From Chloroflexota bacterium (lineage in GTDB: Bacteria; Chloroflexota; JAJPGV01): a stretch of 45,291 nt of DNA. The notes below the pieces were generated by a model. It was not told the DNA's origin. It did no database searches and worked only from the letters and a program-made list of their open reading frames with translations. How positions within the stretch are numbered: position 1 is the stretch's first letter; each line of letters begins with the position of its first letter. Below are positions 19,378-39,877 of the stretch, piece after piece. Position numbers and translations under genes: made by a program. The DNA is taken from the NCBI GenBank assembly GCA_021325635.1, contig JAJPGV010000042.1:1-45291 (forward strand), read 5' to 3'.

Positions 19378-20087
19378 CGCTGCTGCACCTGAGCCGGCTG
19401 CCATCGGGCGAGCCGGAGATCTTCGCGTCGGTGCAGGGCGAGGGCATCACCGTTGGCCTCCCCAGCGCATTCGTGCGGCTGGCTCACTGCAACCTGCGCT
19501 GCTCCTGGTGCGACACCAAGTACACCTGGGAGTGGTCCAGCTACGACCCGCGCCAGGAGATCGTCAAGCTCTCGCCGGCGGCCGCCGCGGACCTCGCGCT
19601 GGCGCTCGATGTCGTGAACGTCGTCGTCAGCGGCGGCGAGCCGCTGTTGCAGCAGCGGCCGCTGGCCGACCTGCTGGTGCGCCTCAAGGCCGCGGAGCGT
19701 CGCATCGAGATCGAGACCAATGGCACCATCGCGCCCGATCCGTCGCTGGCTTCGCTGGTCGATCAGTGGAACGTGTCCCCCAAGCTCGCATCGTCGGGTA
19801 ACGCGGCCCATCGTCGCGAGCGCATGGGCCCGCTGGCCTGGTTCTCGGCCGCTTCCAACGCCCAGTTCAAGTTCGTCGCTGGGTCGGCAGACGATCTGCC
19901 CGAGGTCGGCCTCCTCGCCGCTCGCTACGGCGTAGACCCCTCGCGTATTGTCATCACTCCTGAAGCCACGGATCCCGAGACGCTGCGGCAGCGCTCGCTC
20001 GACCTGGCGCCGGCCTGCATTGCGAAGGGTTATCGACTCGGGACGCGCCTCCACGTCGTGCTCTGGGGCTCAGCCCGCGGCCGGTAG
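19374..20087 (+). CDS. queE: 7-carboxy-7-deazaguanine synthase QueE (radical SAM)
   Basis: 237 residues. QueE rearranges 6-carboxytetrahydropterin to 7-carboxy-7-deazaguanine (EC 4.3.99.3), the step before QueC. The radical-SAM cluster motif CNLRCSWCDTKY (Cys39, Cys43, Cys46) is complete, preceded by IFASVQGEGITVGLPSAFVR as is standard in the family; VVSGGEPLLQ is the SAM-binding GGEP motif. It starts with GTG 19374 inside the queC stop. The product order (QueE then QueC) is reversed on the DNA, as is common. Nothing unusual is seen in the sequence. Confidence 0.95.
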   Translation: MTLLHLSRLPSGEPEIFASVQGEGITVGLPSAFVRLAHCNLRCSWCDTKYTWEWSSYDPRQEIVKLSPAAAADLALALDVVNVVVSGGEPLLQQRPLADLLVRLKAAERRIEIETNGTIAPDPSLASLVDQWNVSPKLASSGNAAHRRERMGPLAWFSAASNAQFKFVAGSADDLPEVGLLAARYGVDPSRIVITPEATDPETLRQRSLDLAPACIAKGYRLGTRLHVVLWGSARGR

Positions 20088-20160: not shown

Positions 20161-21135
20161 ATGGCCGAGTACGAGCCGATCGAGGTGCGTGGGATCTACC
20201 GATCTTCGTCACACATGCCTGTTTGGGCGGTGATGCAGGAAGCTGGTTTGTGGGACCGGGTGGGCATCAAGCTGACCAGCTTTGTATACATCGACGGCTC
20301 TGCTGAGGCCGAGCGCCTGCTGCTCAGCGGCGAGATCGACTTCATCTCCGGCAACCACATCTCCACCTACACCGATTTCACCAAGGGCCGCCCGATCGTG
20401 CACCTCACTTCGCCCAGCAACGCCGTACGCGACAAGCTCATCTCGCGCGAGCCGATGTCGCACGTGAGCGACCTGCGCGGGAAGCGGCTGGGTGAGACCT
20501 CGCAGATCGGCGCCGACGGCGGCTACTCGCATACGCGTGGCAACCACATGCTGTACGTCCTCAAGTCTGGCCTGCAGTTGAGCGACGTGGTGTGGGTGGA
20601 CCTGGCGGAGAAGCTGTCGGACGAGGCGTTGGAGAGCCGCATCGTTTCAGCGCTGCAGGATGGGACGATCGACGCGGCCATGGTGACGGGCGGCACCACT
20701 GCCTACGAGCAGGCCGGTTTCCACGTGCTGCCCATGGGCGAGCTGCCGATGATCAACGGCCCCACGCTCACCAGCACCACGCCCCTGCTCCAGCGCAAGG
20801 ATCGGCTGGCCGAGCGGCTGGTGAAAGCGCAGCTGATGGGCCTGCAGTATGCCCACATCCGGCCGGCCGAGTGCGAGCGCATCTTGAAGCGCCTGTCCGA
20901 AGGATCGAGCCGCACCTACCGCATGGATTCGCTCACCAAGCTGGCTCGCAAGCCGTATCCGGCCATCGAGGCGGTGGCCAACGCCTGGGAGTTGGCGTGC
21001 ATGACTACGCCCTCGACGCGAGACACCACCCCGCTCACGCTGTGGGACCTGCACTACCTCCGCACGCTGGACGACGCGGGTTTCGTGGAAGAGTTCTGCA
21101 AGTCGGCAGCCGAGCCGCAGGCGGTCGGCGCCTGA
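20161..21135 (+). CDS. Signal-less periplasmic-binding-fold protein (NMT1-like)
   Basis: 324 residues related to NMT1/SsuA solute-binding proteins (AERLLLSGEIDFISGNHI, VSDLRGKRLGETSQ, QDGTIDAAMVTGG) but with no signal peptide or lipobox: it opens MAEYEPIEVRGIYRSSSHMP. It should therefore stay in the cytoplasm. Proteins of this fold can be enzymes, for example 4,5-dihydroxyphthalate decarboxylase and thiamine-pyrimidine synthase THI5, so an enzymatic role is at least as likely as binding. AGGAG lies 9 nt before ATG 20161. A bicupin gene follows after 46 nt and is probably cotranscribed, which suggests consecutive steps. A distant relative lies at 41191-42132. Confidence 0.75.
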   Translation: MAEYEPIEVRGIYRSSSHMPVWAVMQEAGLWDRVGIKLTSFVYIDGSAEAERLLLSGEIDFISGNHISTYTDFTKGRPIVHLTSPSNAVRDKLISREPMSHVSDLRGKRLGETSQIGADGGYSHTRGNHMLYVLKSGLQLSDVVWVDLAEKLSDEALESRIVSALQDGTIDAAMVTGGTTAYEQAGFHVLPMGELPMINGPTLTSTTPLLQRKDRLAERLVKAQLMGLQYAHIRPAECERILKRLSEGSSRTYRMDSLTKLARKPYPAIEAVANAWELACMTTPSTRDTTPLTLWDLHYLRTLDDAGFVEEFCKSAAEPQAVGA

Positions 21136-22793: not shown

Positions 22794-23747
22794 ATCAATC
22801 TATTCGGGCTGCCGCCGACGTTCTCGCTGTCTGAGCTCCAGGTCCTCGTCCAGTTAGCGGCGGGCAAGACCCTACGCCAGACGGCGCGTGAGCTGCACGT
22901 GCAGGAGCCGGCCATCAGCCGTTCATTGAGATCGGCCGAGCAGCGCGCCGGCTTCGCCTTGGTGGAGCGCCGGGGCCGCCGTTTGTACCTCACCGCCTCG
23001 GGGCTCGAGCTGGCGAACAAAGCCCGCGACGTTACCGAGCATCTGCAGGAGATCGATCTGCTGCTGCGCGACATGCGCAGCAGCCTGCGCGGACCGTTAC
23101 GGGTGCTCGTGACCCCTGGGCCGGGCAACTACGTGCTGCCCGGCATCCTGGCTGCGTTTCTGAGGACCTACCCGAAGGTCGACATCGATCTGGAGATCGT
23201 TTCACATACGCACATCTGGCGGGCGCTGGTCGACGAGGCCTATGATGTTGGGATCGGGCCCGAGCCTGGTATCCCCACGGGCCTGAGCGGCGAGCATCTC
23301 TATCTCGACCGCCTAGTGGTCTTCGCTGCCAGCGGCTTCAGCCTGGACGGGCGTAAGCGCTGGCAGTGGGACGATCTGCGGGATCGCACGCTGCTCGTCG
23401 GGCCGTTCGACGAAGTGCGCTGGCAGCAGGCGTTGGAGGATATTGGCGGGCGTGGGTTCAAACCACCCAAGGAGATGCGCGTCCACGCGATCGAGGCCGT
23501 TAAGCAGATGGCCGAGGCCGGCGCCGGCCTCGGCGTGCTGTTCGAAAGCGGCCTATGGCGCGAGCTGGCCGAGGGCCGCTTCGTGGAGGTGCCCATCTCT
23601 GATCTGGACGTGGCGGTGCCGTACGGGATGGTACGGAGGCCGACACGCCGGCCCCCGCCCATCATCGAGACCTTCTGTTCCTTCGTGTCACGGGAGGTGA
23701 CACCGCTGCGCGAGGCCATGGCGGAGTCCAAAGCCCGGCTGCGCTAG
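22794..23747 (+). CDS. LysR-type transcriptional regulator, start unresolved
   Basis: The frame is open from 22794, just behind TGA 22791. It reads NLFGLPPTFSLSELQVLVQL, then the helix-turn-helix TLRQTARELHVQEPAISRSL and LVERRGRRLYLTASG, then a type-2 periplasmic-binding effector domain (RVLVTPGPGNYVLPGILAAF ... VKQMAEAGAGLGVLFESGL). Starting at GTG 22899 would cut the HTH in half, so it is wrong. Upstream in frame there is no ATG, GTG or TTG; CTG 22809, CTG 22827 and ATC 22794 remain. The nearby ATG 22790 is one base out of frame and meets TGA at 22832. Either a rare start or a one-base error or frameshift must be assumed. The coordinate given is the limit of the open frame. The AT-rich repeats upstream may be its operator. 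Confidence 0.8.
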   Translation: MNLFGLPPTFSLSELQVLVQLAAGKTLRQTARELHVQEPAISRSLRSAEQRAGFALVERRGRRLYLTASGLELANKARDVTEHLQEIDLLLRDMRSSLRGPLRVLVTPGPGNYVLPGILAAFLRTYPKVDIDLEIVSHTHIWRALVDEAYDVGIGPEPGIPTGLSGEHLYLDRLVVFAASGFSLDGRKRWQWDDLRDRTLLVGPFDEVRWQQALEDIGGRGFKPPKEMRVHAIEAVKQMAEAGAGLGVLFESGLWRELAEGRFVEVPISDLDVAVPYGMVRRPTRRPPPIIETFCSFVSREVTPLREAMAESKARLR

Positions 23748-23759
23748 AGACGGGAGCCG

Positions 23760-24143
23760 CTACTTGCTGGCGATCACGTCCATCTGGATCCAGGTGGTGC
23801 CCTGCAGGTCGGCCTTCATCACGTGGCGGGCAGGGCGGTTGCCCTCGTCGGGAAACATGGCCAGCCACTGCTCGTTCACGAACTGGCGGTGGCTGAAGTC
23901 CTTGAGGTAGACCACGACCTTCCCGATGCCGTCCAGCGTGCCGCCCGCCGATTCAATGATGTGCTTCATATTGACGAAGGCCTGCTGGATCTGGCGGGCA
24001 GGGTCAGTGATGGGATCGGTGCCGCTCGGATCGTGCCCGGAGATGACGGACGGAAGAATCAGATCTCCCAACGTCACGCAGGTGGGAATGGGATTGCGGT
24101 GCCCGGCCATCCCCGGCACCTTGACGACGCTGCGCTTGGCCAT
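23760..24143 (-). CDS. RidA/YjgF family protein (reactive enamine/imine deaminase)
   Basis: 127 residues from ATG 24143, with GAGGAG 6 nt upstream; the open frame further upstream is antisense noise. RidA proteins hydrolyse reactive 2-aminoacrylate-type enamines and imines. Landmarks are ILPSVISGHDP, QIQQAFVNMKHIIESAGG and the substrate-binding Arg in NRPARHVMKADL (Arg106). It lies 19 nt behind the double permease gene as last gene of the operon that starts with another RidA at 30554. Two different RidA proteins at both ends of one operon suggest that the pathway makes an unstable nitrogenous intermediate. Some family members lack deaminase activity, so the role is not certain. Confidence 0.85.
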   Translation of the reverse strand: MAKRSVVKVPGMAGHRNPIPTCVTLGDLILPSVISGHDPSGTDPITDPARQIQQAFVNMKHIIESAGGTLDGIGKVVVYLKDFSHRQFVNEQWLAMFPDEGNRPARHVMKADLQGTTWIQMDVIASK

Positions 24144-24162
24144 GTGAATCTCCTCGATGTCC

Positions 24163-25974
24163 TTAATTTGCGCCCAGCTGCCGCTCGGCCGCCGTTGGGC
24201 GACCGCCCGACACGCCGGTACGTGCGAGCAAGAAGGTGAGAAGCGTCGATCCCAGCACCAGGGGCACAGCCAGAGCCGTGGCCATGCCAATGTCGGCATA
24301 CTGCGTCCAGATCAGCCACAGCAGCGCGCCCAGCGTGCCGTTCGAAGTGACGAACAGCATGATCGAGATGGTCGTATCCCGCATGGCGTGCAAGCCGGCC
24401 CACAGCCAGGCGCGGGTGAAGGAGGGCCAGATCAGCGGGACCACGACGCGGGACAGCAGCTGCCCGAAGCCGGCGCCCGAGAGCTGCGCCGCCTCCTCCA
24501 GCTCGCGGTGGAGCTGCAGCAGCGCTGCATCCATCACCCGCGTGGCGAACGGCAGATAGCGCGTCACCAGGGCGATGGCGATGATCAGGCTGGTGCCGTA
24601 AATCGGCAGCGGCAGCGACACGTACAGGAAGGTCAGCGCCAGGCCGACCACGATCGAGGGGATGGCGGCTATGACGAAGGTCAGCCTGTCGGGCAGCTTG
24701 CTGCCGCGATAGGTGGAGCGCACCGAGTTCCAGGCAACCAGGGCCGCGAGGCCGGCCGTCAGACAGGCGGTGAGCACCATGACCAGGGCGCTGTTCCGCA
24801 GGGTGTCACCTAGACTGGGCAGCCGCAGCAGATGGGCATAGTTGGTGAGGGACACCCGCTTCACCGCCTCCAGCGAGGGTACCGCGTAGAACGGCAGCAG
24901 GCTGGTCCAAACGAGGATGAGGAACGGCAGCAGGAAGGTCAGCGCGAAGTAGGCCGCCAGCGCTGCCGCGGCCACATTCCGCCAGCGGCCCAGGCGCAGG
25001 GGCTGCGGACGGTAGCCCTTCCCCGTGACCACCGCGAATTGCTGCGCTCCGCTCACGGATCGGCTGTAGAGGGTGATGAAGGCCACGGCCATCCCTATCG
25101 ACACCATCGCGTATCCGCTGGCCAGGCCATAGTCGGGAATTCCCCCGGTGGCAGGATGGGCGGCCAGGTAGATCGTGGTGCTGAACATGAAGATGCCGTG
25201 GCCCATGCCCAGCAGAGCCGGCACGTCGAACATCTCGCTCACCACCATGAAGTAGTAGATGGCTGCCGCCAGCAAGCCCGGTCGCAGCAGCGGCACGGTG
25301 ATGCGCTTGAACGTCACCAGCCAGCTTGCGCCGGATAATCGCCCGGCTTCCTCGAGCGACGGGTCCATGCGGTTGAACGTGCCCGAGATCATCATGTACA
25401 GCGGCGCCACGATGCTCGTGCCGGTGACCAGGATCATCCCTGGGATGGAATAGATGTCGAACGGGCCGGGATCGGAGAAGCCGAAGAGCTGTCTCGCCGC
25501 GATGTTCAGCAGGCCGTTGTTGGCGTTGGCCAGCATCACCCAGGCCATGCCCTGCACCAGCCCCGGCACCGCCAGCGAGCTGATCATGAACACCGTCATC
25601 AGGCGCCGTCCCGGCATGTCGCTGCGCTCGAGCAGCCAGCCGAAGATGGTGGCCAGGGTCATGCCGATCAGCAGCGAGCCAACGGCGTACCACAGCGTGT
25701 TCAGCAGCAGGCGGTAGGTCAGACCGGAGGAGAACACGGTCACGTAGTTGGCCAGGGTGAAGCCGGTGGCTTCGAACGGCAGCTTGCTGCCGGTGGCCCT
25801 GAAGCTGCTGAACACCAGCATGGCCAGCGGCACCAGAACCAGGTACACCACGGCCAGCCCGGAGCCCAGTCCGAGCGCCTTCTGGACGCCCGTAGCGGGG
25901 TCCAGAAGCTCGGGCCAGATGCGGCGCTGAATCCCGCCCAGGCCGAAGACGGCCGGGCGGGCAACGACTTTCAT
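24163..25974 (-). CDS. Double-length ABC transporter permease (iron(III)/thiamine type, two fused halves)
   Basis: 603 residues with about twelve membrane segments in two halves. Each half has the cytoplasmic EAA loop that docks the ATPase: EEAGRLSGASWLVTFKRITV in the first and EEAAQLSGAGFGQLLSRVVV in the second. This is the plan of FbpB/ThiP-like permeases, in which one chain replaces a permease dimer. ATG 25974 overlaps the TGA of the ETF gene by 4 nt (ATGA), so translation is coupled. The binding lipoprotein is two genes upstream; no ATPase gene is present in the operon or window. The cargo is unknown. Confidence 0.92.
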   Translation of the reverse strand: MKVVARPAVFGLGGIQRRIWPELLDPATGVQKALGLGSGLAVVYLVLVPLAMLVFSSFRATGSKLPFEATGFTLANYVTVFSSGLTYRLLLNTLWYAVGSLLIGMTLATIFGWLLERSDMPGRRLMTVFMISSLAVPGLVQGMAWVMLANANNGLLNIAARQLFGFSDPGPFDIYSIPGMILVTGTSIVAPLYMMISGTFNRMDPSLEEAGRLSGASWLVTFKRITVPLLRPGLLAAAIYYFMVVSEMFDVPALLGMGHGIFMFSTTIYLAAHPATGGIPDYGLASGYAMVSIGMAVAFITLYSRSVSGAQQFAVVTGKGYRPQPLRLGRWRNVAAAALAAYFALTFLLPFLILVWTSLLPFYAVPSLEAVKRVSLTNYAHLLRLPSLGDTLRNSALVMVLTACLTAGLAALVAWNSVRSTYRGSKLPDRLTFVIAAIPSIVVGLALTFLYVSLPLPIYGTSLIIAIALVTRYLPFATRVMDAALLQLHRELEEAAQLSGAGFGQLLSRVVVPLIWPSFTRAWLWAGLHAMRDTTISIMLFVTSNGTLGALLWLIWTQYADIGMATALAVPLVLGSTLLTFLLARTGVSGGRPTAAERQLGAN

Positions 25975-27836
25975 GCCGCGATGGTACGGCTTGCCGGAAC
26001 GAGCGCAGAGGTGACTCCGGCTCGTTTCAGAGTATCGACCAGCGCTGGGACGAGGGCACGATAGTCGCCTACCAGCCCGTAATCGGCGTGCTGAAAGATT
26101 GGGGCAGTGGGGTCGTTGTTCATGGCGACGACGGTGCCGGCCCGGGTGATCCCAACCGTGTGATAGATGGCGCCGTGGACCGCTACGGCCACGTACAGGG
26201 CGGGTGACACCGGCTTGCCGGTGAGGCCTATCTGCAGCTGCCGCGGCAGCCAGCCGGCGTCGGTCACGCGTCTGGTGCCGCCGACTTTGGCGCCCAGCGC
26301 CTCCGCTAGCTGCTTGACCAGCAACAGCTCCTCGGGCCGCTGCAGGCCGAACCCGGCGCAGACGATACGGTCGGCGCTGTCCAGGTCGCCCTGGTCGTCC
26401 ATGATGTGCTGGCTGTCGACCAGCCGGGTCCTGCTTTGCGGCAGACCGTTGAGGCTCATGCGCACGATCTCAGCCCGGCGCGTGTGGTCGGACTCGAAGG
26501 GCGCCAGCATGCCTGGCCGCACAGTAGCTACGTGCGGCACCGTGCGGGACAGGATCGAGGCCACGATCAACCCGCCGAAGGCCGGCTTCAGCGGCGCCAT
26601 CTGGCCGTCCGCGTCGATCTCGATGGCCACCGCGTCGGCGGTGACGCCCAGGCCCAGCTGGGCCGCTGCTCGCGGCGTGAAATCGCGGCCGAACGAAGTC
26701 GCGGGGGCCAGTACCGCCCATGGCTGGTAGCTCTCGATGGCCTGCCGCAGCGCCCAGGCGTACCGTTCGCCGCTGTAGTCGCCGAGCTCGGGGCTGTCAG
26801 CCAGGTAGACCGTCTCGGCGCCGTCGGCGGCGAGGGCGGCGGCTTGCGGCTCCACGCCCGATCCGATAGCCAGCGCCGAGACGGTGCCGCGTACCTGTCC
26901 CGCTAGGCGCACAGCTTCGGCCAGCAGCTCGCGCGTCACCAGCCGCGGGTGGCCGCCGGCAAACTCCGCTACGACCATGATCTGCCGGTCAGTGCGAGGG
27001 GAGGTGACGGCCGGCGGTAGGGCTTCGAGCCTGGTTTGCTCACGTGGGGCAAAAGCACCGGCTCGGTTCAGCTCGGCGACCAGCCAGTCACATGCTGCCG
27101 CCGGATCCGAAGCGTCCCGGATGACCGGCTGCCGCTCGATCCGGAAGGGGCGTACGCCGGCCACGACCGTTGGCGATCCAGCCAAGCCGACGGCGCCGGC
27201 GGCCAGCCCAAGGTCCTGTAGCGAAACGCGCTCTACGGGGAGGTGGCTGACTTGGGCGAGCATGTCGTCTCGCGGATGCGGAGCCGGTTTGATGACACGC
27301 TCGGCCACGGTGATGACGGCCGGCAGCTCGAGCTCAAAGGTATCCGAGCCCGCGTCGGTCTCTCTCGTGACCATGAGACAGCCGTCCTTCATTTCCAGCG
27401 CAGTCACGGCAGTCACGTGCGGCAGGTCCAGCAGCGCTGCCACCTCGGCCCCCACCTGGCCGGTCTCGGCATCGATGCTGTACTGGCCGCAGAGGACCAG
27501 GTCGAACCCTCGGGGGGCGATGAAGGCAGCCAAAGCTCGGGCCGTGGCCAGGGTGTCCGCGCCGGCCAGCACGGCGTCACACAGGTGCACGGCCCTGTCG
27601 GCGCCCACGGACAGGGCTCCTCGCAGCGCCTCCTCGGCTTGCGGCGGCCCCATGGTGATAGCCACCGCTTGGCCGCCGCCGTCCTGGTCGCGCAGCGTAG
27701 TCGCCAGGGCCAGCGTGCGCCGATCGAAGGGATTGAGGAAGCTGGACACGCCATCGCGGATGAGGGTCATTCGCTCGTGGTCGAAACGCAAATCCTCGAC
27801 GTGAGGAACCTGCTTGATGCAGGCGGCGATCTTCAA
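25971..27836 (-). CDS. Single-chain electron transfer flavoprotein: EtfB fused to EtfA
   Basis: 621 residues. Residues 1-265 are the beta subunit: MKIAACIKQVP, VGADRAVHLCD and the AMP-binding segment GQYSIDAETGQVGAEVAALL. After a linker of about 20 residues, 285-615 are the alpha subunit: QIMVVAEFAGG, and the FAD site TRRVTDAGWLP, QIGLTGKPVSPALYVA, HGAIYH, NNDPTAPIFQHADYGLVGD. ETFs normally are heterodimers that pass electrons from flavin dehydrogenases or ferredoxin to a quinone or dehydrogenase partner. Both cofactor sites look complete, although the canonical GISGA is AVHGA. The TTG start overlaps the lipoprotein stop (TTGA) and the stop overlaps the permease start (ATGA), so the gene is embedded between two transporter genes. 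Fusion and location are both unusual. Confidence 0.93.
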   Translation of the reverse strand: MKIAACIKQVPHVEDLRFDHERMTLIRDGVSSFLNPFDRRTLALATTLRDQDGGGQAVAITMGPPQAEEALRGALSVGADRAVHLCDAVLAGADTLATARALAAFIAPRGFDLVLCGQYSIDAETGQVGAEVAALLDLPHVTAVTALEMKDGCLMVTRETDAGSDTFELELPAVITVAERVIKPAPHPRDDMLAQVSHLPVERVSLQDLGLAAGAVGLAGSPTVVAGVRPFRIERQPVIRDASDPAAACDWLVAELNRAGAFAPREQTRLEALPPAVTSPRTDRQIMVVAEFAGGHPRLVTRELLAEAVRLAGQVRGTVSALAIGSGVEPQAAALAADGAETVYLADSPELGDYSGERYAWALRQAIESYQPWAVLAPATSFGRDFTPRAAAQLGLGVTADAVAIEIDADGQMAPLKPAFGGLIVASILSRTVPHVATVRPGMLAPFESDHTRRAEIVRMSLNGLPQSRTRLVDSQHIMDDQGDLDSADRIVCAGFGLQRPEELLLVKQLAEALGAKVGGTRRVTDAGWLPRQLQIGLTGKPVSPALYVAVAVHGAIYHTVGITRAGTVVAMNNDPTAPIFQHADYGLVGDYRALVPALVDTLKRAGVTSALVPASRTIAA

Positions 27837-28984
27837 CTTGGTGTGATGCCCAGGGTCTTCTGGGCCTTTACCTGGAAGTCGTTCTCACGCTTGACCTTCT
27901 CCAAGGTATCGAGCGCGATCAGCTTGACCTGTCCATCGCAGATGGCCTGTGCCGACGGGCCTGCGTTGCATGGCTGCATCAGGTCCCTGGCCGTGCGGCT
28001 CAGGATCTGATGCGCTTTCGCCGTGGTGGTCCAGGCCATGAACAGCACGGCCGCGTTGGGATGCGGCGCGCCCTTCACGCTGTACACGTTGAGATGGCGG
28101 ACCGTGAAGGGGCCCACGCTGGACATCGCTACCGGCGCGCTCTTGCTCTTGAGGTCCATGAATTGGGCTATCGGCATGGTGGCGATACTCAGCTGCCCTG
28201 CCGCCAGCTTTTGGGCTGCCTCGGCGCCTTTCGAGGTGTAGACCGGCTTCTGCAGCTTGAGCTTGTCGAGGAACGCCAGTGTCTCGTTCTCGCCGCGGTC
28301 GAGGAAAGCGCCGCCGAACACGGCACCGGCCTCCGAAGTGAAGCCCATCTTGCCGTTGGCAAAGCGTGGATTCAACAGGTCGTCCCAGGTCTTGGGTACG
28401 GCGTCGCCCTTCAGCACGTCCGTGTTGTAACCCAGGACGGACACCGTGTCGTACATGTGGAGCAGCTTGTTGTCGAATTCGGCCTGGCCGTTGGGATCGA
28501 CCAGCTTGCCCCAGTCGTACTGCAGCAGGATGCCTCGCTCGTCGAGCGGGATGACGTCCGTCACGTTGCCGAAGCCCACGTCGGTGCTGATCTTGTTGGC
28601 CGTGGCCTCGGTGATGATCTGTGGCGGCACCTGCGGGTTCGGCACCACGGCGTGGGTCACCTTGATGCACGGATAATCCTGGGCAAAGGCGGTGGCCAGA
28701 TCGCTCTTGACGTAATCTTCGAGTCCGCCCTTGAAGACCACTTCGCCCTCCGCTTTGGCCTTGTCGTAGAGCGCCTTGAGGTTGGCCTGGCGGTCGCTGG
28801 AATCGAACTGGAGCAGGCCGGTCGAAGCCGAAGGTGATGCCGCCCTGGATGCGGCGGCGGAGCCTGCCGCGGCGGGCGGGCTGCCGGAAGACGGGGCAGA
28901 GGCAGCGCCGCAGGCGGCCGTCAGCATTGCGCAGGCGAGGCCGGCCAGCAGGGGCTGGATCGCTCGGGTTGGAAACGACTTCAC
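27833..28984 (-). CDS. Iron(III)-type (family 1) solute-binding lipoprotein
   Basis: 383 residues. A signal peptide ends in the lipobox MLTAAC and a short Ala/Ser/Pro linker follows. The domain NLKALYDKAKAEGEVVFKGG, VPKTWDDLLNPRFANGKMGF and KGAPHPNAAVLFMAWTTT are typical for the AfuA/FbpA-like family, which covers iron, phosphonate, polyamine and aromatic-acid binding proteins. The start is GTG 28984, with AAGGAG 6 nt upstream. It is the third gene of the operon RidA-LigB-SBP-ETF-permease-RidA and the natural partner of the permease at 24163. Confidence 0.88.
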   Translation of the reverse strand: MKSFPTRAIQPLLAGLACAMLTAACGAASAPSSGSPPAAAGSAAASRAASPSASTGLLQFDSSDRQANLKALYDKAKAEGEVVFKGGLEDYVKSDLATAFAQDYPCIKVTHAVVPNPQVPPQIITEATANKISTDVGFGNVTDVIPLDERGILLQYDWGKLVDPNGQAEFDNKLLHMYDTVSVLGYNTDVLKGDAVPKTWDDLLNPRFANGKMGFTSEAGAVFGGAFLDRGENETLAFLDKLKLQKPVYTSKGAEAAQKLAAGQLSIATMPIAQFMDLKSKSAPVAMSSVGPFTVRHLNVYSVKGAPHPNAAVLFMAWTTTAKAHQILSRTARDLMQPCNAGPSAQAICDGQVKLIALDTLEKVKRENDFQVKAQKTLGITPS

Positions 28985-29049
28985 GACGAACTCCTTGTTC
29001 GGTATTCGGCAGCGGAGGTGGTTCGGCCGGATGTGCCGGGGTGAGTTGG

Positions 29050-30105
29050 TCAGGCTGCTTTGGGGAACAGCACCAGCGCTTTGTCGGAGTTGAACAGGTA
29101 GGTTTCGGAGTAGGCGAGCACCTGAGGCGTCCGGCCCTCCATGGCGCCTGCCAGGCAGATCCAGTTCAGCATCTCGTGCTGTCCCGCGTCCTGCAACTCC
29201 TCGGGCGTGAGCTCGCGCCAGCTCCTCAACCGGCCCCCTTGCAGATCGGCCAGTCGCCGCCGGTCCGTTTCCACGTCCGGGTAAATGAAGCCGTGCTTCT
29301 CGGTAAGCGAGCCGTGCGACCAGATCGATGAGCCGATGATCGCCACCCGCCAGGGGCTTTCGGCGAAGATCTGTTCGACGCGCCGGCCGAGGTCATAACA
29401 GCGCCAGGGCAGGGGCGAAGGAATGGGGCGAATGGGCTGGCCGCCGGCCTTGGGCTGTTCGGGCCGCGGAATGCGCAGGTGGCTGCCGTAGCAGTTCACG
29501 TGGAAGGGCACAATTGGATAGTCGAAGCCCCGGCGGTCGTAGTCGAGATACAGGACCGTGCGCGTGAAGGCATGGCTGAGCGTGTCGGCATGGCTCATCT
29601 CGTACGAGCAAGCCACGTCGAACCCGCTGCGAATGAGCTCGTGCGCCAGGTGGTTGGCGGCCTCGCGATGCCCAGGCAGCGTCACGATCGTGTCCTGCGG
29701 CGCGTTCCACACGTTTTCGCTCGCCCCCAGTCCGGCGCTGGCCTTGAACGGGGCCAGCTTGGCCTCGTCCAGGGCGAAGACGCAGAACGGCGCCAGCAGG
29801 TCGACCTTGAAGTTCTCGTACTGGTCGTCGCCCCAGATGAGCAGGAGGTCGGGCTTGAAGGCGTCCAGGGCGGCTCTGGCCTCGCGGAAGGCCTGGACCT
29901 GCTTGGCGCGATGGGCGGCGGCCGCCTTCGCGCCGTCGTCGTCGCCCCACTCCGCGCGCATGCCTTCGGGCCAGTTGCCCGGATCCCGAAAGCGCTCCGG
30001 CGTGCGCTCGCTCTTCAGCGTGCGTCGCAGCAGGTTGGCCATGTCCGCGTCGGTGAACTGAAGATGCGGAGCATGTGTGCAGCCGATGCCTAGTGTGTCC
30101 GCCAT
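29050..30105 (-). CDS. LigB-superfamily (class III extradiol dioxygenase-like) protein
   Basis: 351 residues. The family cleaves catechol-type rings with Fe(II) held by two His and one Glu. The first His is in IGCTHAPHL (His11). The strand that usually ends in NDH reads LLLIWGDDQYENF (92-99), placing Gln95 where the second His is expected. Later blocks are DYPIVPFHVNCYG and IIGSSIWSHGSLTEKH. The paralogue at 37435-38505 shares all of this, including the GDDQ, so the substitution is inherited rather than an error. Either another residue completes the metal site or the reaction differs. ATG 30105 has GGAG 8 nt upstream. It follows RidA by 41 nt. Confidence 0.82.
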   Translation of the reverse strand: MADTLGIGCTHAPHLQFTDADMANLLRRTLKSERTPERFRDPGNWPEGMRAEWGDDDGAKAAAAHRAKQVQAFREARAALDAFKPDLLLIWGDDQYENFKVDLLAPFCVFALDEAKLAPFKASAGLGASENVWNAPQDTIVTLPGHREAANHLAHELIRSGFDVACSYEMSHADTLSHAFTRTVLYLDYDRRGFDYPIVPFHVNCYGSHLRIPRPEQPKAGGQPIRPIPSPLPWRCYDLGRRVEQIFAESPWRVAIIGSSIWSHGSLTEKHGFIYPDVETDRRRLADLQGGRLRSWRELTPEELQDAGQHEMLNWICLAGAMEGRTPQVLAYSETYLFNSDKALVLFPKAA

Positions 30106-30146
30106 TCGTCTCTCCCCAAGGTGTTGCTGGATGCCGCCATCAAGCG

Positions 30147-30554
30147 CTACGGCGCGACGGCGACGACGTCCGCCAGGAACTTGCTGCCGTCCCCGGGGTT
30201 GCCCAGATCGCTCACCTGGACGGCAAAGCGCGCCGGCGGCTCGTCCCCGAAATACTCCTGCCAGACCTTGTTGAACACCGGCCGGTCATGCTGCAGGTCG
30301 ATCATGTAGACGGCCACCTTGACCACGTCCTGCATGCCCGCTCCTGCCCAGCTCAGCGTCTCCTTGATGTTTTCGAACAGCTGACGGGCCTGCGCTTCGG
30401 TTTCCTGGGGCAGGGTCCGCCCGCCGGGCGATTGCCCGCGAATGGCCGACAGGAAGATCAAGCCACCAGCCTTGACGCCATGGCAGTTCCCGCCGCGCAG
30501 CGTCTTGCCCTCGTTGTCCGGAATCAGCGTTTTCTTAGCCGTAGCGGATGCCAC
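30147..30554 (-). CDS. RidA/YjgF family protein
   Basis: 135 residues starting at GTG 30554, with GAGGAG 8 nt upstream. Landmarks are KAGGLIFLSAIRGQ, ARQLFENIKETLSWAGAG and the binding Arg in EPPARFAVQVSDL (Arg109). It is the first gene of the minus-strand operon. Compared with the RidA at 23760 it is clearly a different paralogue. A -10-like TAGGAT (30602-30597) stands 36 nt upstream of the GTG if transcription begins near 30590, but there is no matching -35. Deamination or detoxification of an imine from the pathway is the likely role. Confidence 0.85.
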   Translation of the reverse strand: MASATAKKTLIPDNEGKTLRGGNCHGVKAGGLIFLSAIRGQSPGGRTLPQETEAQARQLFENIKETLSWAGAGMQDVVKVAVYMIDLQHDRPVFNKVWQEYFGDEPPARFAVQVSDLGNPGDGSKFLADVVAVAP

Positions 30555-30687: not shown

Positions 30688-31851
30688 ATGCGGAACGGCT
30701 TCAAAGTCTGGGATACCGACACCCACCTGCGCCCCACGTTGGAGGTGCTGGAACCCTACTACGACGCTCGCCTTCGCAGCCGGCTGCCTGAGCTGGAGCA
30801 GTACCGGCGCGTTATCAAGCCGGAAGGTGACGAGCGCTCCACGCGCACGCCCGGGAACCACGACTACAACTTCCCCGGCTACGTCACCTATCTGCGCCGT
30901 CTCGGGCAGGCTGGCCCGTCCGACGGACCCAAAGACCGGACCGTCAAGAAGTTCATGGGCAGCCGGCAGCCCAGCGTTGGAACCGAAGACGCCGACGTGG
31001 AGGCCCGGATTCGGGACATGGACGAGGAGGGCGTCGACGTCCAGCTGCTGGTGCCGGGCGCGCCGAAGCCCACGCTGCTGCACGATGCAGAGCTGGAGAT
31101 TGGCTTCGTGCAGGCCTACAACCGCTTTGCCAAGGACTTCTGCTGCCACTATCCGCACCGGCTCAAGGCGCTGCTGCCAGTGCTGCCGGCCGCTATCGGC
31201 GACTGCGTGGCCGAGATCAAGAAGTACGCCGGCGAGCCCTGGCTGGTGGGGGTATGGCCCATGGTCGGCAACGACCATCCACTCGACCATCCGGACCTCG
31301 AGCCGGTATGGGCGGCAGCCAATGAAGCGGGACTCGCGGTCGTGCATCACAGCGTGGCCAACACGCCCCCGTACTACCCCGGTTACCTCGATCTGTGGGA
31401 CAACGCCCTGCTCGGCCGGGCGGCGGCGCATCCGTGGGGTGCGATGCGCGCCATCGGGGCTTTCGTCGGCGCCGGCATCCTCGAGCGCTACAAGGCGCTG
31501 CGTTTCGGCGTGCTCGAATGCGGCTGTGGCTGGCTGCCGTTCTGGTCGCGCCGGCTCGACGACCAGGCGGCCTACCTGGGCGGCACGGCCGAGCTGAGAC
31601 AGACGTTTGGCGAGCAGCTCAGCGGCGGCCGCTTCTTCGCCAGCATCGAGGTGGCCGAAGGCGAGGACATGATCAAGATGGTGGCCGACTTCATGGGCCC
31701 GGACGTGCTGATGTATGCCTCGGACTATCCCCATCCCGAATGCCACTTCCCCGAGTCGGTCGCCCATTTCCTCGAGTGGCAGACGTTGGGCGACGACCTG
31801 CGGCGCAAGGTGCTGTGGGACAATCCAGTCAAGTTCTACGGCCAGCCCTGA
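30688..31851 (+). CDS. Amidohydrolase-2 family protein
   Basis: 387 residues of the metal-dependent TIM-barrel family. The N-terminus FKVWDTDTHLRP has Asp in place of the first His of HxH, a common variant. Further landmarks are VVHHSVANTPP (metal His), RFGVLECGCGWLPFWSRRLD and LMYASDYPHPECHFPES with the catalytic Asp. The last part DLRRKVLWDNPVKFYG is the standard C-terminus. ATG 30688 is weakly supported by GGAAATTGAG upstream. The gene is divergent from the RidA-LigB operon and 74 nt ahead of a second amidohydrolase. Decarboxylase or hydrolase activity on a ring-cleavage product is likely. Confidence 0.83.
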   Translation: MRNGFKVWDTDTHLRPTLEVLEPYYDARLRSRLPELEQYRRVIKPEGDERSTRTPGNHDYNFPGYVTYLRRLGQAGPSDGPKDRTVKKFMGSRQPSVGTEDADVEARIRDMDEEGVDVQLLVPGAPKPTLLHDAELEIGFVQAYNRFAKDFCCHYPHRLKALLPVLPAAIGDCVAEIKKYAGEPWLVGVWPMVGNDHPLDHPDLEPVWAAANEAGLAVVHHSVANTPPYYPGYLDLWDNALLGRAAAHPWGAMRAIGAFVGAGILERYKALRFGVLECGCGWLPFWSRRLDDQAAYLGGTAELRQTFGEQLSGGRFFASIEVAEGEDMIKMVADFMGPDVLMYASDYPHPECHFPESVAHFLEWQTLGDDLRRKVLWDNPVKFYGQP

Positions 31852-31925
31852 GCAATACGCCCGACGCGGGCAAGTAGAATGATCCCGTTCGCGGCCAGGC
31901 GGCCAGACTAGTCGAGGTGGAATCC

Positions 31926-33149
31926 ATGCCGACCCCATACAAGCTCATCTCTAGCGACTCACACCTGGAGGTGCCACCCGAGCTCTGGGTGCATCGTGTA
32001 CCGGAGAAGTACCGCGATCGGGCTCCGCGGCGAGTGCGGCTGGACAGCGGCAGCGACGCCCTGGTGGTGGACGGCTCGGCGCCCATCCAGAACTCGAGCG
32101 ACATGTATGCCAGCCGCCGCCCGCGCCCGTACGACCCGAACGTGATCAGCTATGACGACACCGCCGGCACCGGCTCGGCACAGCAGCGCCTGGAGGAGCA
32201 GGACGTCGAGAACATCGAGACCGAAATCCTCTTCCCGGCCCAGGTGGCGGGTCCCATGTCGTGGCGGCGCATCAAGGACGACGACGCCTACCTGGCGGTG
32301 GTGCGCGCCTACAACGACTGGCTGATCGAGGAGTACTGCGCCGTTGCGCCGGACCGGCTGGTTGGCCTTGGGATTCTCCCCTGGACCACCTGCGACGACA
32401 TGATCGCGGAGATGCGACGCTGCGCCGACAAAGGCTTCAAGGGTGTGGCGCTGGGCGTCTTCCCCGGCGGGCAGGGCTATCCCACCCCCGAAGACGACCG
32501 CTTCTGGGAGGCTGCCCTCGACCTGCAGATTCCCGTGGCTATCCACGTGCAGCTGTTGCGCATCGGCCATAGGGCCTCACAGCCGACGTTCCGCTATCCC
32601 CAGGAGCCGGAGCGCCTGAAGGCCGCGCTGGAGGGTGGCAAGCGGACGGTGGTCGACCGGATGGCGCGCTTCGGACTGGACAGCGCCCTGACGGTATCGC
32701 AGCTGGTCATGTCCGGCGTGTTCGATCGCTTCCCGACGCTGCGGCTGTTCGTCGCCGAATCTCGCGTCGGCTGGCTGCCCTTCTGGTTCGAGAACGCAGA
32801 CCTGCAGTACGAGCGCAATATCTTCTGGTGCTCGCGCGACCTCGGGATTCAGCCGCTCAAAGAGCCGCCCAGCGAATACGTCAAGCGGCACATCTACTGG
32901 AGCATCCAGTGTGAGCGCATGGGCGTCGAGGTACGCCGCCACGTGGGCGTCGATCACATCATGTTCGCCACCGACTTCCCGCACCTGGAAAGCGAGTTCC
33001 CTCGCACGCCGCAGCTGGTGGAGGAGATCTACGCCGACGTTTCCGAAGACGAGCGCTATCGCATTCTGCGCGGCAACGCCATCAACTTCTTCAACCTGGA
33101 GCATCAGCGCCAGGAAGATCGCGAACTAGCTCGCCAAGCTGCCGCCTGA
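31926..33149 (+). CDS. Amidohydrolase-2 family protein
   Basis: 407 residues. ISSDSHLEVPPELWVHRVP is the opening of the DxSH-type subgroup; FPAQVAGPMSW, IPVAIHVQLLRIG, LRLFVAESRVGWLPFWFENAD and MFATDFPHLESEFP follow, the last with the catalytic Asp. ATG 31926 is preferred over GTG 31917 because GAGGTGG stands 5 nt before it. It is more similar to the amidohydrolase at 36307 (shared RDRAP and AYNDWLIEEY/AYNDWIAEY) than to its neighbour at 30688. It converges with the permease gene, 18 nt away. The substrate is unknown. Confidence 0.83.
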   Translation: MPTPYKLISSDSHLEVPPELWVHRVPEKYRDRAPRRVRLDSGSDALVVDGSAPIQNSSDMYASRRPRPYDPNVISYDDTAGTGSAQQRLEEQDVENIETEILFPAQVAGPMSWRRIKDDDAYLAVVRAYNDWLIEEYCAVAPDRLVGLGILPWTTCDDMIAEMRRCADKGFKGVALGVFPGGQGYPTPEDDRFWEAALDLQIPVAIHVQLLRIGHRASQPTFRYPQEPERLKAALEGGKRTVVDRMARFGLDSALTVSQLVMSGVFDRFPTLRLFVAESRVGWLPFWFENADLQYERNIFWCSRDLGIQPLKEPPSEYVKRHIYWSIQCERMGVEVRRHVGVDHIMFATDFPHLESEFPRTPQLVEEIYADVSEDERYRILRGNAINFFNLEHQRQEDRELARQAAA

Positions 33150-33167: not shown

Positions 33168-34919
33168 TTATCGCCGGGGAGAAAGAAGCGCTCGGGCGAT
33201 GCCCGCGACGAGTCCCAGGCTTGCGGCCAGGAGGATCGACAGCGCCGCGGCCGCGGGCAGGTTGGGTGTGGTCCAGAAGTTCCAGATCAGCGCCGCAACG
33301 ACCAGGTTGCCGGTCGTGCCCAGCATCAGCGGGAAGGTGAAGTCGCGCATGCTGTGCGTGGCGACCCACACCCAACCGTTAGCCATGGCCGGCTTGAGCA
33401 GCGGCAGCACGATGGCCCGGATGGTTTGCCAGCCGCCCGCGCCGTGCACCGCGGCCGACTCCTCCAGCTCGCGCTTGACCTGCATCAGCGAAGCGATGAG
33501 CGTTCGGTTGCCGTAAGCCAGGTAGGCCGTGACCTGGCCCAGCATGATGATGGCCACCGTGCCATAAATCGGCGTTCGGGCGTACAGCAGCAGCACGCCC
33601 AGGGCCATCAGGACGTGTGGGATGGCGAGCGGGGTGAAGGCCATGCCTTCGAGCAGGCGGACCGATCGCAGGCGGATGCGCACGCAGGCCCAGGCAATCA
33701 GCAGTGACAGCCCCATGACGAGCGTCGCGGTGCCGGCGAGCAGGACGACGGTATTGATAGCCGCCGTGACGACGCGCTGGTTATGCAGGACGCTGCCGTA
33801 GGCGGCCAGCGACAGCGACTGCAGCGCCTGGCCCGATGGCGCCTGGTAAAAAGGCAGCAGACTGGCCCACAGCAGCAGGCCCAGCGGCGCGAGGACTGCC
33901 ACCAGCAGGTACCCCAGCACGAAGGCCGTGGCCGGGACCGTCCAGACGCCGAGCTGAGCTCGCTTGGGCCGGTAGCCCTTGCCGGTTACCACCTGAAAGC
34001 GCTCGGAATGGCGTGACGTTCGGATGAACACCGTCATCAGCAACAGGCCCAGCGCGAGCGTGATCAAGGCATAGGCCGAGGCCAGGCCATAGTCGGGTGG
34101 CCCGCCGCCTGGTTGAGTGAGCAGGAACACGCGTGTGCTGAGCACGAGTGTCTGGCTTGGCAGGCCGAGGGCCAGCGGCACTTCGAACGTCTGGCTCACC
34201 GCCACGGCGTAGTACATCAGCACCGACAGCAGCCCCGGCAGCATCAGCGGCAGCAGGATGCGCCGCCAGATGGTGGGCGTCCTCGCACCCGCGGTCTGGG
34301 CCGCTTCCTCGAGGCTGGCGTCGATGCGCCCGACGAGCGGCGAGAGCATGTAGAACATGCTGGGACAGATACCCAGGCCGGTCACGAACACCATGCCCCA
34401 CAAGCTGTAGCCGTTCAGTGGTCCTTCGCTCGCATCGGAGCCGCTGATCGCGCGCAGCAGGGTGTTCGCAAGTCCGATGCGGGGCGACAGCCACAGCGTC
34501 CAGCCGAGGGCGGTGATCATCGGTGGGAGCCCCAGCGTCACCGCCTGCCCCACGTAGACCAGGCGCCGCAGAGGCAGGTCCGTGCGCTCTATCAGCCAGC
34601 TCAGCGCCAGGGCCAGCACGCCACCGAAACAGATGCTGCCCGCGCTGTACGTCGCGGTGTTGATCAGCAGCCGCAGCGTCGCCGGGCTGCTGAACACGGC
34701 CACGAAGTTCCGGATGGTGAGCGCTGCCGGATCCCACGGCATGGTACCAGCCGGCTTGAGGCTCGCGAGCAGCAGCAGCGCCAGCGGACCGGCGATCAGC
34801 AGCCCCGTCAGGACGAGTAGTCCGGCAACGAGGCTTCCCGACGGGCCCAGCCGGAACGCCTTCATCTTTTCCGGCCAACCTACCTTCGGGGCCGGCGAGA
34901 CCCCTACCACGCTGCTCAT
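33168..34919 (-). CDS. Double-length ABC transporter permease (two fused halves)
   Basis: About 583 residues with two six-helix halves and two EAA loops (EEAAQTAGARTPTIWRRILL and EESAAVHGAGGWQTIRAIVL). It is paralogous to the permeases at 24163 and 42284, all sharing VVTGKGYRP-like or SGRYRP-like linkers between the halves. The frame is open to 35090, but that would overlap the divergent lipoprotein gene; ATG 34919 (MSSVVGVSPAP) or ATG 34865 (MKAFRLGPSG, just before the first membrane helix) are better, neither with a clear ribosome binding site. The divergent lipoprotein at 35061 is the likely partner. No ATPase is nearby. Confidence 0.88.
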   Translation of the reverse strand: MSSVVGVSPAPKVGWPEKMKAFRLGPSGSLVAGLLVLTGLLIAGPLALLLLASLKPAGTMPWDPAALTIRNFVAVFSSPATLRLLINTATYSAGSICFGGVLALALSWLIERTDLPLRRLVYVGQAVTLGLPPMITALGWTLWLSPRIGLANTLLRAISGSDASEGPLNGYSLWGMVFVTGLGICPSMFYMLSPLVGRIDASLEEAAQTAGARTPTIWRRILLPLMLPGLLSVLMYYAVAVSQTFEVPLALGLPSQTLVLSTRVFLLTQPGGGPPDYGLASAYALITLALGLLLMTVFIRTSRHSERFQVVTGKGYRPKRAQLGVWTVPATAFVLGYLLVAVLAPLGLLLWASLLPFYQAPSGQALQSLSLAAYGSVLHNQRVVTAAINTVVLLAGTATLVMGLSLLIAWACVRIRLRSVRLLEGMAFTPLAIPHVLMALGVLLLYARTPIYGTVAIIMLGQVTAYLAYGNRTLIASLMQVKRELEESAAVHGAGGWQTIRAIVLPLLKPAMANGWVWVATHSMRDFTFPLMLGTTGNLVVAALIWNFWTTPNLPAAAALSILLAASLGLVAGIARALLSPRR

Positions 34920-36221: not shown

Positions 36222-36306
36222 GGGCGGGCTCGGGACGAAGCCGCGCTATCGTGCGCCGCGCCCCTGATACCGCCGTTGGTGACCAGATTTCAGCGAGGTG
36301 ATCCTT

Positions 36307-37434
36307 ATGGCTAACGACAAGCTCTTTTCGGCCGACTCTCACGTCAGCGAGCCGCTGGACCTGTGGGTCGAACGGCTCGATCAACGCTTCCGAGATCGGG
36401 CGCCGCACATGGAAGAGCTCCAGGAGGACGGCCAGAAGAAGGAGTTCTGGGTATTCGAGGGCTTTCCGCCGCATCGCCTGGGCGTTGGCATCGCCGCCGC
36501 CTCGTTGACGGGCGACCGAAATGAGTTCGAGAACCGCCGCGGCAGCTACGCCAACGCCCGCCCGGGAGGTTGGGATCCCGCTGAGCGGCTTAAGGACCAG
36601 GACGTCGACGGACTGGATGGCGAGGTGCTCTACACCACCTTAGGCTTCCGCCTGTTCTGGCTGGCCGACGCCGATCTGCAGCGCGCCTGCTTCCGCGCGT
36701 ACAACGACTGGATCGCCGAGTATTCGAGCCACGACCCGCGGCGCCTGGTCGGTCTGGCGCTGATCTCGCTGACCGACGTTGGCCTGGCGGTGGAGGAGAT
36801 GACCCGCTGCGCCAAGCTGGGCCTCAAGGGCGCGGTGATCTGGAACTCAGCCCCGGACGAGCGGCCATACACCTCGCCGGAGTACGACCCCTTCTGGGCC
36901 GCGGCGCAGGAGCTCAACGCGCCCGTCAGCCTGCACTCGCTCACCGGCCATCACGAAAGCCGCTCGCCGATGAACTGGTACCTGCACAACGTGGTCATGC
37001 ACCACGAGATCGAGCGCACGCTGTCGGACTTCATCCTGTCCGGCGTGCTGGAGCGCTTTCCCCGGCTGAAGATCGTCTCAGTGGAGAACCAGGGCGGCTG
37101 GATACCCTACTTCCTGCTGCGGCTGGACCGCGCGGCCACAACCGGGCGCTGGAGCTTTCCGACGCGGCTCACCATGACGCCCACCGAGTACTTCCGCCGC
37201 CAGATCTTCGCCACGTACATCGACGATCCCATCTCGATCCATGACCTGGACCTCATCGGCGCCGACAACCTCATGTGGTCATCCGACTATCCGCACCACC
37301 AGTCCACCTGGCCGCGCTCTCAGGAGATCGTCCGCCGTGACTTCGACGGCTGCGCCCCGGAGCTCAGGCGCAAGGTCGTGCGCGACAACGTGCTGAAGCT
37401 GTACGACCTTGCCGGCGTGCTCGAGGCCGTTTGA
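36307..37434 (+). CDS. Amidohydrolase-2 family protein in the ring-cleavage operon
   Basis: 375 residues beginning FSADSHVSEPLDLWVERLD. Landmarks are VSLHSLTGHHE, LKIVSVENQGGWIPYFLLRL, NLMWSSDYPHHQSTWPRSQE with the catalytic Asp, and LRRKVVRDNVLKLYDL. ATG 36307 is chosen over GTG 36298 since GAGGTG lies 6 nt before it. The stop codon directly abuts the ATG of the LigB-type gene (TGA-ATG), so both are translated together. In protocatechuate 4,5-cleavage pathways amidohydrolases act after the LigB-type dioxygenase (LigI lactonase, LigJ hydratase), so this protein could act on its ring-opened product. That assignment is inference. Confidence 0.84.
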   Translation: MANDKLFSADSHVSEPLDLWVERLDQRFRDRAPHMEELQEDGQKKEFWVFEGFPPHRLGVGIAAASLTGDRNEFENRRGSYANARPGGWDPAERLKDQDVDGLDGEVLYTTLGFRLFWLADADLQRACFRAYNDWIAEYSSHDPRRLVGLALISLTDVGLAVEEMTRCAKLGLKGAVIWNSAPDERPYTSPEYDPFWAAAQELNAPVSLHSLTGHHESRSPMNWYLHNVVMHHEIERTLSDFILSGVLERFPRLKIVSVENQGGWIPYFLLRLDRAATTGRWSFPTRLTMTPTEYFRRQIFATYIDDPISIHDLDLIGADNLMWSSDYPHHQSTWPRSQEIVRRDFDGCAPELRRKVVRDNVLKLYDLAGVLEAV

Positions 37435-38527: not shown

Positions 38528-39877
38528 ATGGGCCTGCGTCGAACGCTGACTAAGGTGCTGGGTGGCTATCCCGGCGGCTGGCGCAAGTATGCGCGCGGCA
38601 GCCAGGGCAGTGAGACTCCGCCCTTCGTGCAGCCCAATAACCGGGACGATCGCCGCAGCGCCATCCCCGCGCTGGGCCTTCGCCAGTACTGGTATCCGGC
38701 CCTTCCGGCCAGGGACGTCGGCTGGCGCAAGCCTGTGGGCCTCAGGCTGCTGGGCACCGACCTGGTGCTGTTTCGGGGCAAGGACGGCGAGATCAAGGCG
38801 TTGTGGGACTACTGTCCCCATCGCGGCGCCTATCTGTCCTGGGGAGACTGCTTCTGGAAGGGCTACGTCAGCTGCCCCTACCACGGCGCGACGTTCGACG
38901 GCACGGGGGAGTGCGTCGAGTTCATCACTGAAGGGCCGGACTCCAAGATGGTGGGCCGGATGAAGGCTCGCGTCCATCCGACGCGAACCCTCAAGGGCAT
39001 CGTGTTCGTTTGGATGGGCGAGGGCGAGCCGGTGCCGATCGAAGATGACGTGCCGCCGGAGTTCTTTCAGAAGAAGGCGTTGGTCCAGTCCGCCTTCCGT
39101 TACTGGAAGTGCAACTGGATGATCGCCCTGGAGAACACGGGCGATGCCCACAACATGTTCTACGTGCACCGCGACTCTTTCCGCCAGCTTCGTACGCGCA
39201 CCGGCGGCCGGCCGCGAACGCCGGTGGGTTACCGGGTGAAGATCGTCGACAACGTGGCGGTGCAGCGGCTGAACAAAGGCGACCTCAAGGGCACTGAAGG
39301 CCACTACGAGGTGAACGGCAAGCTGCCGCAGCAGCTCTACCATCCACGAGTCGGAGCCTACTGGCCCAAGCATCGATGGCGGCTGCTGTGGAGCTGGATC
39401 TTCGAGCCCTTCGAGCGGCGGCGGCTGCGCAAGCCCCGGATTCAAAACCCCGAGCGCTGGGAGGGGCAGCGTCTGCCTGGGATGGTGCGCAACAATCACC
39501 ATACCCACATGTACACGCGCTGGGGCGTCCCGGTGGAATCCAACCTGACGCGCGCCGTGTACTTCTACACCACCTGGCCCAGGACCTGGTGGGGCCAGAT
39601 CTACGACCGGCTGGCCTTTGCCCTGGTGCTGAAGTGGATGTACTTCTTCAACTTCTCGGATCAGGACTACGACGCGATGCGCTCGGTGCGCTACCAGTAC
39701 CCGGAATTCCTGTCCTCCACGGATAACCCGGTGGTGGCGCTGCGCAAGCTCGTGACCGAGCACGCGCGCGGGATCAAGCGCGAAGCGGAGATCGCCGAGG
39801 AGACGACCGCTGAGCAGATGGTCCGCGAAGCCGATCGCCTGCTGGGCGTGAGTGGCGAGGTGGGAACGCAGCGATGA
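38528..39877 (+). CDS. Rieske non-haem iron oxygenase, large subunit
   Basis: 449 residues. Rieske motif: Cys96-x-His98 (DYCPHRGAYLSW) and Cys116-x2-His119 (VSCPYHGATFDG). Mononuclear iron site: ENTGDAHNMFYVHRD with His208 and His214. The protein is longer than phthalate-dioxygenase-type enzymes because of a hydrophobic/aromatic C-terminal part (TTWPRTWWGQIYDRLAFAL, WMYFFNFSDQDY), in which it recalls membrane-associated Rieske enzymes of the PaO/Tic55 and ketosteroid hydroxylase groups. GAGGAG is about 10 nt before ATG 38528. A Rieske ferredoxin gene follows directly in the same frame, and a cis-diol-dehydrogenase-like SDR after it, supporting a ring dihydroxylation. A reductase is missing from the operon. 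Confidence 0.92.
   Translation: MGLRRTLTKVLGGYPGGWRKYARGSQGSETPPFVQPNNRDDRRSAIPALGLRQYWYPALPARDVGWRKPVGLRLLGTDLVLFRGKDGEIKALWDYCPHRGAYLSWGDCFWKGYVSCPYHGATFDGTGECVEFITEGPDSKMVGRMKARVHPTRTLKGIVFVWMGEGEPVPIEDDVPPEFFQKKALVQSAFRYWKCNWMIALENTGDAHNMFYVHRDSFRQLRTRTGGRPRTPVGYRVKIVDNVAVQRLNKGDLKGTEGHYEVNGKLPQQLYHPRVGAYWPKHRWRLLWSWIFEPFERRRLRKPRIQNPERWEGQRLPGMVRNNHHTHMYTRWGVPVESNLTRAVYFYTTWPRTWWGQIYDRLAFALVLKWMYFFNFSDQDYDAMRSVRYQYPEFLSSTDNPVVALRKLVTEHARGIKREAEIAEETTAEQMVREADRLLGVSGEVGTQR

Follow-up and report, generated by a model that had tools for sequence, protein, structure and literature searches.

The window analysed here, the whole 45,291-nt contig JAJPGV010000042.1 of a Chloroflexota bacterium (GCA_021325635.1), has a gene cluster for the uptake and degradation of an organic compound. 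It encodes an electron transfer flavoprotein (ETF) in which EtfB and EtfA are joined in a single chain, its gene lying between those of a solute-binding protein (SBP) and an ATP-binding cassette (ABC) permease. ETFs are usually seen as heterodimers that connect flavin dehydrogenases with the quinone pool, or as bifurcating modules in anaerobes. Judged from its sequence, the window protein falls into a separate, little-described clade of single-chain ETFs. We consider it fairly likely that it acts as a dedicated carrier for the oxidoreductases of a pathway, co-expressed with uptake, RidA and LigB-type proteins. The link between importer and ETF is specific to this genome, with the carrier probably serving the redox enzymes of the cluster rather than the importer.

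The open reading frame (ORF) for the EtfB-EtfA chain (25971..27836, minus strand) runs without a stop through either half, and its 621-aa product matched two ETF domains (PF01012) and one ETF_alpha domain (PF00766) above the cut-offs. By this domain content the protein is assigned to the EtfAB superfamily. Alignments to PDB structures place EtfB at residues 1 to ~225 and EtfA at ~284–607, with a linker of ~58 residues (~226–283) between them. Both halves aligned over their full length to solved ETFs, the best matches being CarDE, Bcd-Etf, EtfABCX and the A. fermentans Etf. A frameshift or an artefactual fusion was ruled out because the ORF contains no stop and the chain is unbroken in the 19 members of the clade described below; the fusion noticed in an earlier sequence-only reading of the window is thus genuine.

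The EtfB half carries the stretch AGADTLATA. The corresponding GADTxAT is also found in the bifurcating EtfBs of CarDE (6fah), A. fermentans Etf (4kpu), C. difficile Bcd-Etf (5ol2) and T. maritima EtfABCX (7koe), which were the top-scoring solved relatives of both halves, and 7qh2 has GADVVAT at the equivalent position. The canonical EtfAB proteins (human 1efv, Paracoccus 1efp) share the fold family and the carrier role, but their EtfBs, like that of 1o94, lack the ADTxAT stretch. In the EtfA half, the Arg (TRR), Thr (GLTG) and His (YHT) of the FAD-domain motifs are preserved, and Leu and Tyr stand at two motif positions that are occupied by Gln in the closest solved relatives.

In a tree of 35 ETF proteins, 19 fused ETFs formed one group with a support of 100/100. 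Apart from the protein of plasmid pRHL1 of Rhodococcus jostii RHA1, which was the only clade ETF among the best matches listed in the plasmid searches, all members come from the bacterium's own phylum: the window copy, two more copies from the same genome, those of G168 and of the Chloroflexi metagenome-assembled genome L001, and members from several other families. The ADTxAT stretch is kept in 19/19. In EtfA of all 19, the Gln of GQTG is replaced by Leu, Ile or Val, and in none does Gln precede the conserved His of QH; the Arg, Thr/Ser and His of the FAD-domain motifs are retained throughout. The split ETFs of the set mostly kept both Gln residues (exceptions L003, L041 and L144). Single-frame EtfBA fusions were a minority in the 400 genomes of the phylum that were searched. 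A pattern scan of named genomes yielded one fused locus in 80, that of L001, nearly all others having separate etfB and etfA genes. The nearest relative found was that of G168 (56%).

Fusion has also occurred outside this clade, as the tree places the G057/G378/G030 type and G128 as separate fusion events. The G057/G378/G030 proteins share the single chain with the window protein but have canonical GQTG and QH motifs. In G057 and G378 (L138, L139), the EtfBA fusion, with canonical FAD-domain motifs, overlaps an ETF-QO-like gene (ETF:quinone oxidoreductase) by 4 bp. No earlier description of fused ETFs was found in the literature searched, which did not extend to the main ETF-family survey, and an earlier account may exist.

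The likeness to bifurcating ETFs raises the question of whether the single chain itself bifurcates, with NADH reducing a bifurcating flavin in the EtfB half and the two electrons leaving at low and at high potential. Bifurcating EtfBs are the nearest counterparts of the EtfB half, which contains ADTLAT, and the FAD-domain motifs of EtfA retain Arg, Thr and His as in bifurcating EtfAB. However, those proteins consist of two chains rather than one, and the Gln residues of GQTG and QH are replaced throughout the fused clade (Leu and Tyr in the window protein). The window ETF is not linked to an acyl-CoA dehydrogenase, FixCX or a gene for a ferredoxin-accepting partner; the window ORFs scanned, those of the operon included, encode neither FixCX nor Bcd, Ldh or CarC. 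The neighbourhood is moreover O2-using. We regard bifurcation as distinctly unlikely.

The ETF gene belongs to a run of six genes on the minus strand, in the order RidA2, LigB-type protein, SBP lipoprotein, EtfB-EtfA, double permease and RidA1, with a convergent regulator gene beyond:

30147..30554, minus strand: RidA2, 135 aa, GTG start (PF01042, 4e-18)
29050..30105, minus strand: LigB-superfamily protein (PF02900, 8.8e-10)
27833..28984, minus strand: solute-binding lipoprotein of the SBP_bac_8 / PhnS2-AfuA type, 383 aa (PF13416, 1.2e-16)
25971..27836, minus strand: single-chain ETF, 621 aa, TTG start (PF01012 twice and PF00766)
24163..25974, minus strand: double (fused) ABC permease, PhnU2/FbpB-like, 603 aa (PF00528 twice)
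23760..24143, minus strand: RidA1, 127 aa (PF01042), Shine-Dalgarno sequence GAGGAG
22899..23747, plus strand: LysR-family regulator, convergent with the operon (PF03466, 1e-41)

All six genes of the order given in the sequence-only reading were recovered from ORFs and Pfam matches, and five of them were scored for base composition, which was coding-like (GC content of 0.82–0.89 at third versus 0.43–0.50 at second codon positions). The start of RidA1 was corrected from 24299 to the ATG at 24143, which is preceded by GAGGAG, the longer ORF entering the permease gene. The true start of the LysR regulator probably lies further upstream; its helix-turn-helix match opens at profile position 26. The ETF start overlaps the SBP stop by exactly 4 bp (TTGA), and the permease start overlaps the ETF stop by the same length (ATGA). 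Good Shine-Dalgarno sequences precede RidA2, LigB, SBP and RidA1, whereas no recognisable one was present in the start regions inspected for the TTG of the ETF and the ATG of the permease. Overlaps and missing Shine-Dalgarno sequences together fit translational coupling of both genes; they fall short of showing that SBP, ETF and permease are synthesised in constant proportion. The remaining intergenic gaps measure 41, 65 and 19 bp, which makes it plausible that the six genes form a single operon. A promoter and terminator scan returned nothing above chance level. The ETF gene's position between SBP and permease would allow electron-carrying capacity and uptake to be induced together, with the ETF taking no part in transport.

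The SBP and the double permease are distant members of the PhnS2-PhnU2 / AfuA-FbpB families but score far under the curated cut-offs (4e-7 against TIGR03261 for the SBP, 2e-30 against TIGR03262 for the permease). The operon differs from these importers in having the ETF gene between SBP and permease and in having no ATPase gene, so the full set of SBP, permease and ATPase seen in PhnS2/PhnU2 or AfuA importer operons was not found. Two further double permeases are encoded at 33168-35090 and 42284-44062, three in all on the contig, and no ABC_tran match was obtained anywhere on it; the ATPases must be encoded elsewhere. Iron transport was considered because the distant PDB matches of the SBP are iron-binding SBPs; these matches were weak, no FbpA-like YY pair was evident by eye in the SBP, and the assignment was not adopted.

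The sequence-only reading had gone further and proposed an importer with the ETF as obligate partner, the substrate being oxidised through the ETF, the RidA proteins removing imines and the LigB-type protein opening a ring. The gene order, the overlaps and a second SBP-EtfBA-RidA cluster in the same genome speak for such a system. Its central expectation, recurrence of the SBP-ETF-permease order, was not borne out: in none of about 20 loci outside this genome does the fused ETF gene immediately adjoin one for an SBP or a double permease (G168, where no transporter was found beside the ETF, G292/G351/G219, G044, G230, G055 and others), and none of the other genomes examined shares the arrangement. 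The obligate partnership was rejected on these gene neighbourhoods. Furthermore, the second cluster has no permease, and neither operon contains an ABC ATPase gene.

In class III extradiol dioxygenases the His of the D-H motif is an Fe ligand. The LigB-type protein (29050-30105) reads GDDQYENF where the aligned MhpB-type enzyme (8k04) has PDHYNGF, so that Gln takes the place of His, and this variant recurs in the window paralogue (37435-38505); the motif His is thus present in neither. It is doubtful that this protein opens rings by the customary iron chemistry, though the GDDQYENF variant is conserved in plasmid relatives from Rhodococcus, Mycobacterium and Sphingobium (L155-L158). These relatives mostly adjoin amidohydrolase or ring-hydroxylating dioxygenase genes, which places the LigB-type gene in aromatic-type catabolic clusters, and no ETF was annotated beside them in the stretches shown. 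Taken as a whole, the system with an obligate ETF is very unlikely. What stands of the idea that the pathway of the imported compound uses this ETF is the part of a catabolic electron carrier, which is its likeliest role, the gene being embedded in the operon by its overlaps; the partnership with the importer does not stand, and since it is not conserved, the importer link matters little.

The clade members in other genomes have different neighbours. On RHA1 pRHL1 (L145:8734-12168), the gene of a diiron-like protein is followed by that of a Rieske ferredoxin, and EtfBA by an ABM-like protein after it, with overlapping gene ends from the diiron-like gene on. The diiron-like protein (296 aa) has ferritin-like ExxH motifs and a weak similarity to DUF455/MiaE; it gave no Pfam match over the cut-off and no PDB match. 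By its appearance, this operon encodes a multicomponent monooxygenase, so far uncharacterised, that includes an ETF. In G044, EtfBA comes after a Rieske ferredoxin and an Amidohydro_2 protein, with a 4-bp overlap; G055 has the order EtfBA, ABM, FAD-linked oxidase, and in G230 EtfBA is followed by a DAO-type flavoprotein. Such redox neighbours speak for the carrier role. Two MFS (major facilitator superfamily) transporters, not ABC transporters, adjoin the fused ETF of L001. By sequence reading, a gene for a VIT1/CCC1-like membrane protein adjoins the fused ETF in G353b, G238, G426 and G425 (L136, L137, L146, L147). No evident partner gene was seen at the ETF loci of G168, of G292/G351/G219 or of C50:20266, a further copy in the bacterium's own genome.

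Three fused ETF copies were found in this genome: the window copy, one on C50 (L088:8215-10128) and C50:20266, which stands alone. For the second copy, 25 bp separate it from the preceding gene, which encodes an SBP lipoprotein of the NMT1 type, and 31 bp from the RidA gene that follows, and a Rieske oxygenase gene is convergent with this cluster. An SBP neighbour of a fused ETF recurs only inside this genome. As the SBP families of the two clusters differ, these are not one duplicated block. The repetition of SBP-EtfBA-RidA is modest evidence that the clusters have a function in common in this lineage: two of the three copies are followed by a RidA gene in the same orientation, for which chance was put at ~1e-5 in a rough post hoc estimate (about nine RidA genes genome-wide, ~4,400 genes as estimated from genome size). 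An SBP neighbour by itself is weak evidence, given that the 4.64 Mb genome encodes 63 NMT1-type proteins. Four NMT1/THI5-type proteins are encoded in the window (1312-2457, 2470-3558, 17405-18598 and 20161-21135) with no permease or ATPase adjoining, the last without an obvious signal peptide. The catabolic region also contains genes for QueC and a QueE-like radical SAM protein (7-deazaguanine genes, 18436-20087).

These copies also bear on whether the window ETF is a hitchhiker, that is, a duplicated housekeeping-type fused ETF that landed in an importer operon by chance and is expressed without a pathway-specific role. The solitary C50:20266 copy, the abundance of NMT1-type proteins, the orthologues elsewhere without SBP or permease neighbours and the long branch of the window copy would all agree with this. 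The exact 4-bp overlaps maintained on both sides, the RidA gene downstream of two of three copies and the SBPs of different families, which exclude a single block duplication, argue against it, and we regard hitchhiking as rather unlikely.

For a carrier serving the oxidoreductases of the same pathway, candidate partners are encoded close by:

30688..31851, plus strand: AH1, divergent Amidohydro_2 protein, PtmU3-like (best PDB matches PtmU3 and 8sm8/8sm9)
31917..33149, plus strand: AH2, Amidohydro_2 (PtmU3 7e-39, DitZ 2e-27, AibH2 2.5e-14)
36298..37434, plus strand: AH3, Amidohydro_2 (PtmU3 5e-53, DitZ 3e-45)
38528..39877, plus strand: Rieske oxygenase-like protein, possible electron acceptor (PF00355 4e-20, PF11723 1e-12)

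Further Rieske proteins are encoded at 10381-11937 and at 16288-17289, the latter fused to a glyoxalase-type domain. AH1-AH3 have their nearest solved relatives in PtmU3, DitZ, the 8sm6-8sm9 set and AibH2, and resemble the AibH1H2-AibG-AibF, PtmU3, DitZ and SfbO systems most. They contain the motifs D.H, E...GW.P and D[YF]PH (SDYPH in AH1), of which the last two are missing from the actinobacterial relatives of the DVHTH type; D.H / E / D[YF]PH is the dinuclear ligand set expected of such oxygenases. Few amidohydrolase-related dinuclear oxygenases have been described so far (PMC10811679). These enzymes work with a reductase and a Rieske ferredoxin, the reductase of the Aib system being a flavin reductase (PMC7782822, PMC10811679). 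AibF, in contrast to the window protein, is an FMN ferredoxin:NAD+ oxidoreductase and not an ETF, and no small Rieske ferredoxin adjoins AH1/AH2. No member of the flavin reductase family was found among the window ORFs scanned, which leaves the ETF as the sole candidate flavoprotein found in the window.

On this basis, together with the Rieske and AH proteins, we tentatively prefer a route in which the fused ETF, as a cytosolic electron carrier, would feed electrons, directly or via a Rieske ferredoxin, to the O2-dependent Rieske and PtmU3/AibH-like enzymes of the same 45 kb. RidA might perhaps clear imine or enamine by-products. A slightly less likely alternative is that the ETF is charged by a flavin dehydrogenase whose gene lies outside the window and delivers the electrons to the EtfD-like membrane protein described below. 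ETF-QO was set aside as the acceptor: its iron-sulphur domain was not found in this genome, which differs from the canonical EtfAB / ETF-QO route in having an EtfD-like protein. This EtfD-like membrane CCG protein, whose gene adjoins an acyl-CoA dehydrogenase gene, could link the ETF to the quinone pool.

Several points weigh against the carrier role and its oxygenase route. The window ETF shows no translational coupling to any partner enzyme, and AH1-AH3 are candidate amidohydrolase-related dinuclear oxygenases by similarity and motifs only. Rieske or diiron neighbours occur in just two or three clade members; G168 and several other relatives stand alone and point to no partner. The end branch of the window copy is long (0.8, versus 0.25 for G168), and this copy could be relaxed or repurposed. 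Finally, an AlphaFold model built from a two-sequence alignment was uninformative (predicted local distance difference test score, pLDDT, 33).

Extended to the whole clade, the preferred oxygenase route would make these ETFs the flavin reductases of multicomponent Rieske, diiron and amidohydrolase-related dinuclear oxygenases, feeding C-H or ring hydroxylation in place of a ferredoxin reductase, with two of the copies in this genome also tied to SBPs and RidA; we put this forward as a speculative generalisation that is on balance unlikely. A monophyletic group of single-chain ETFs with a bifurcation-like EtfB, a changed EtfA motif and oxygenase neighbours would nevertheless widen the roles of the ETF family, and the clade offers candidates for the electron donors of amidohydrolase-related dinuclear oxygenases.

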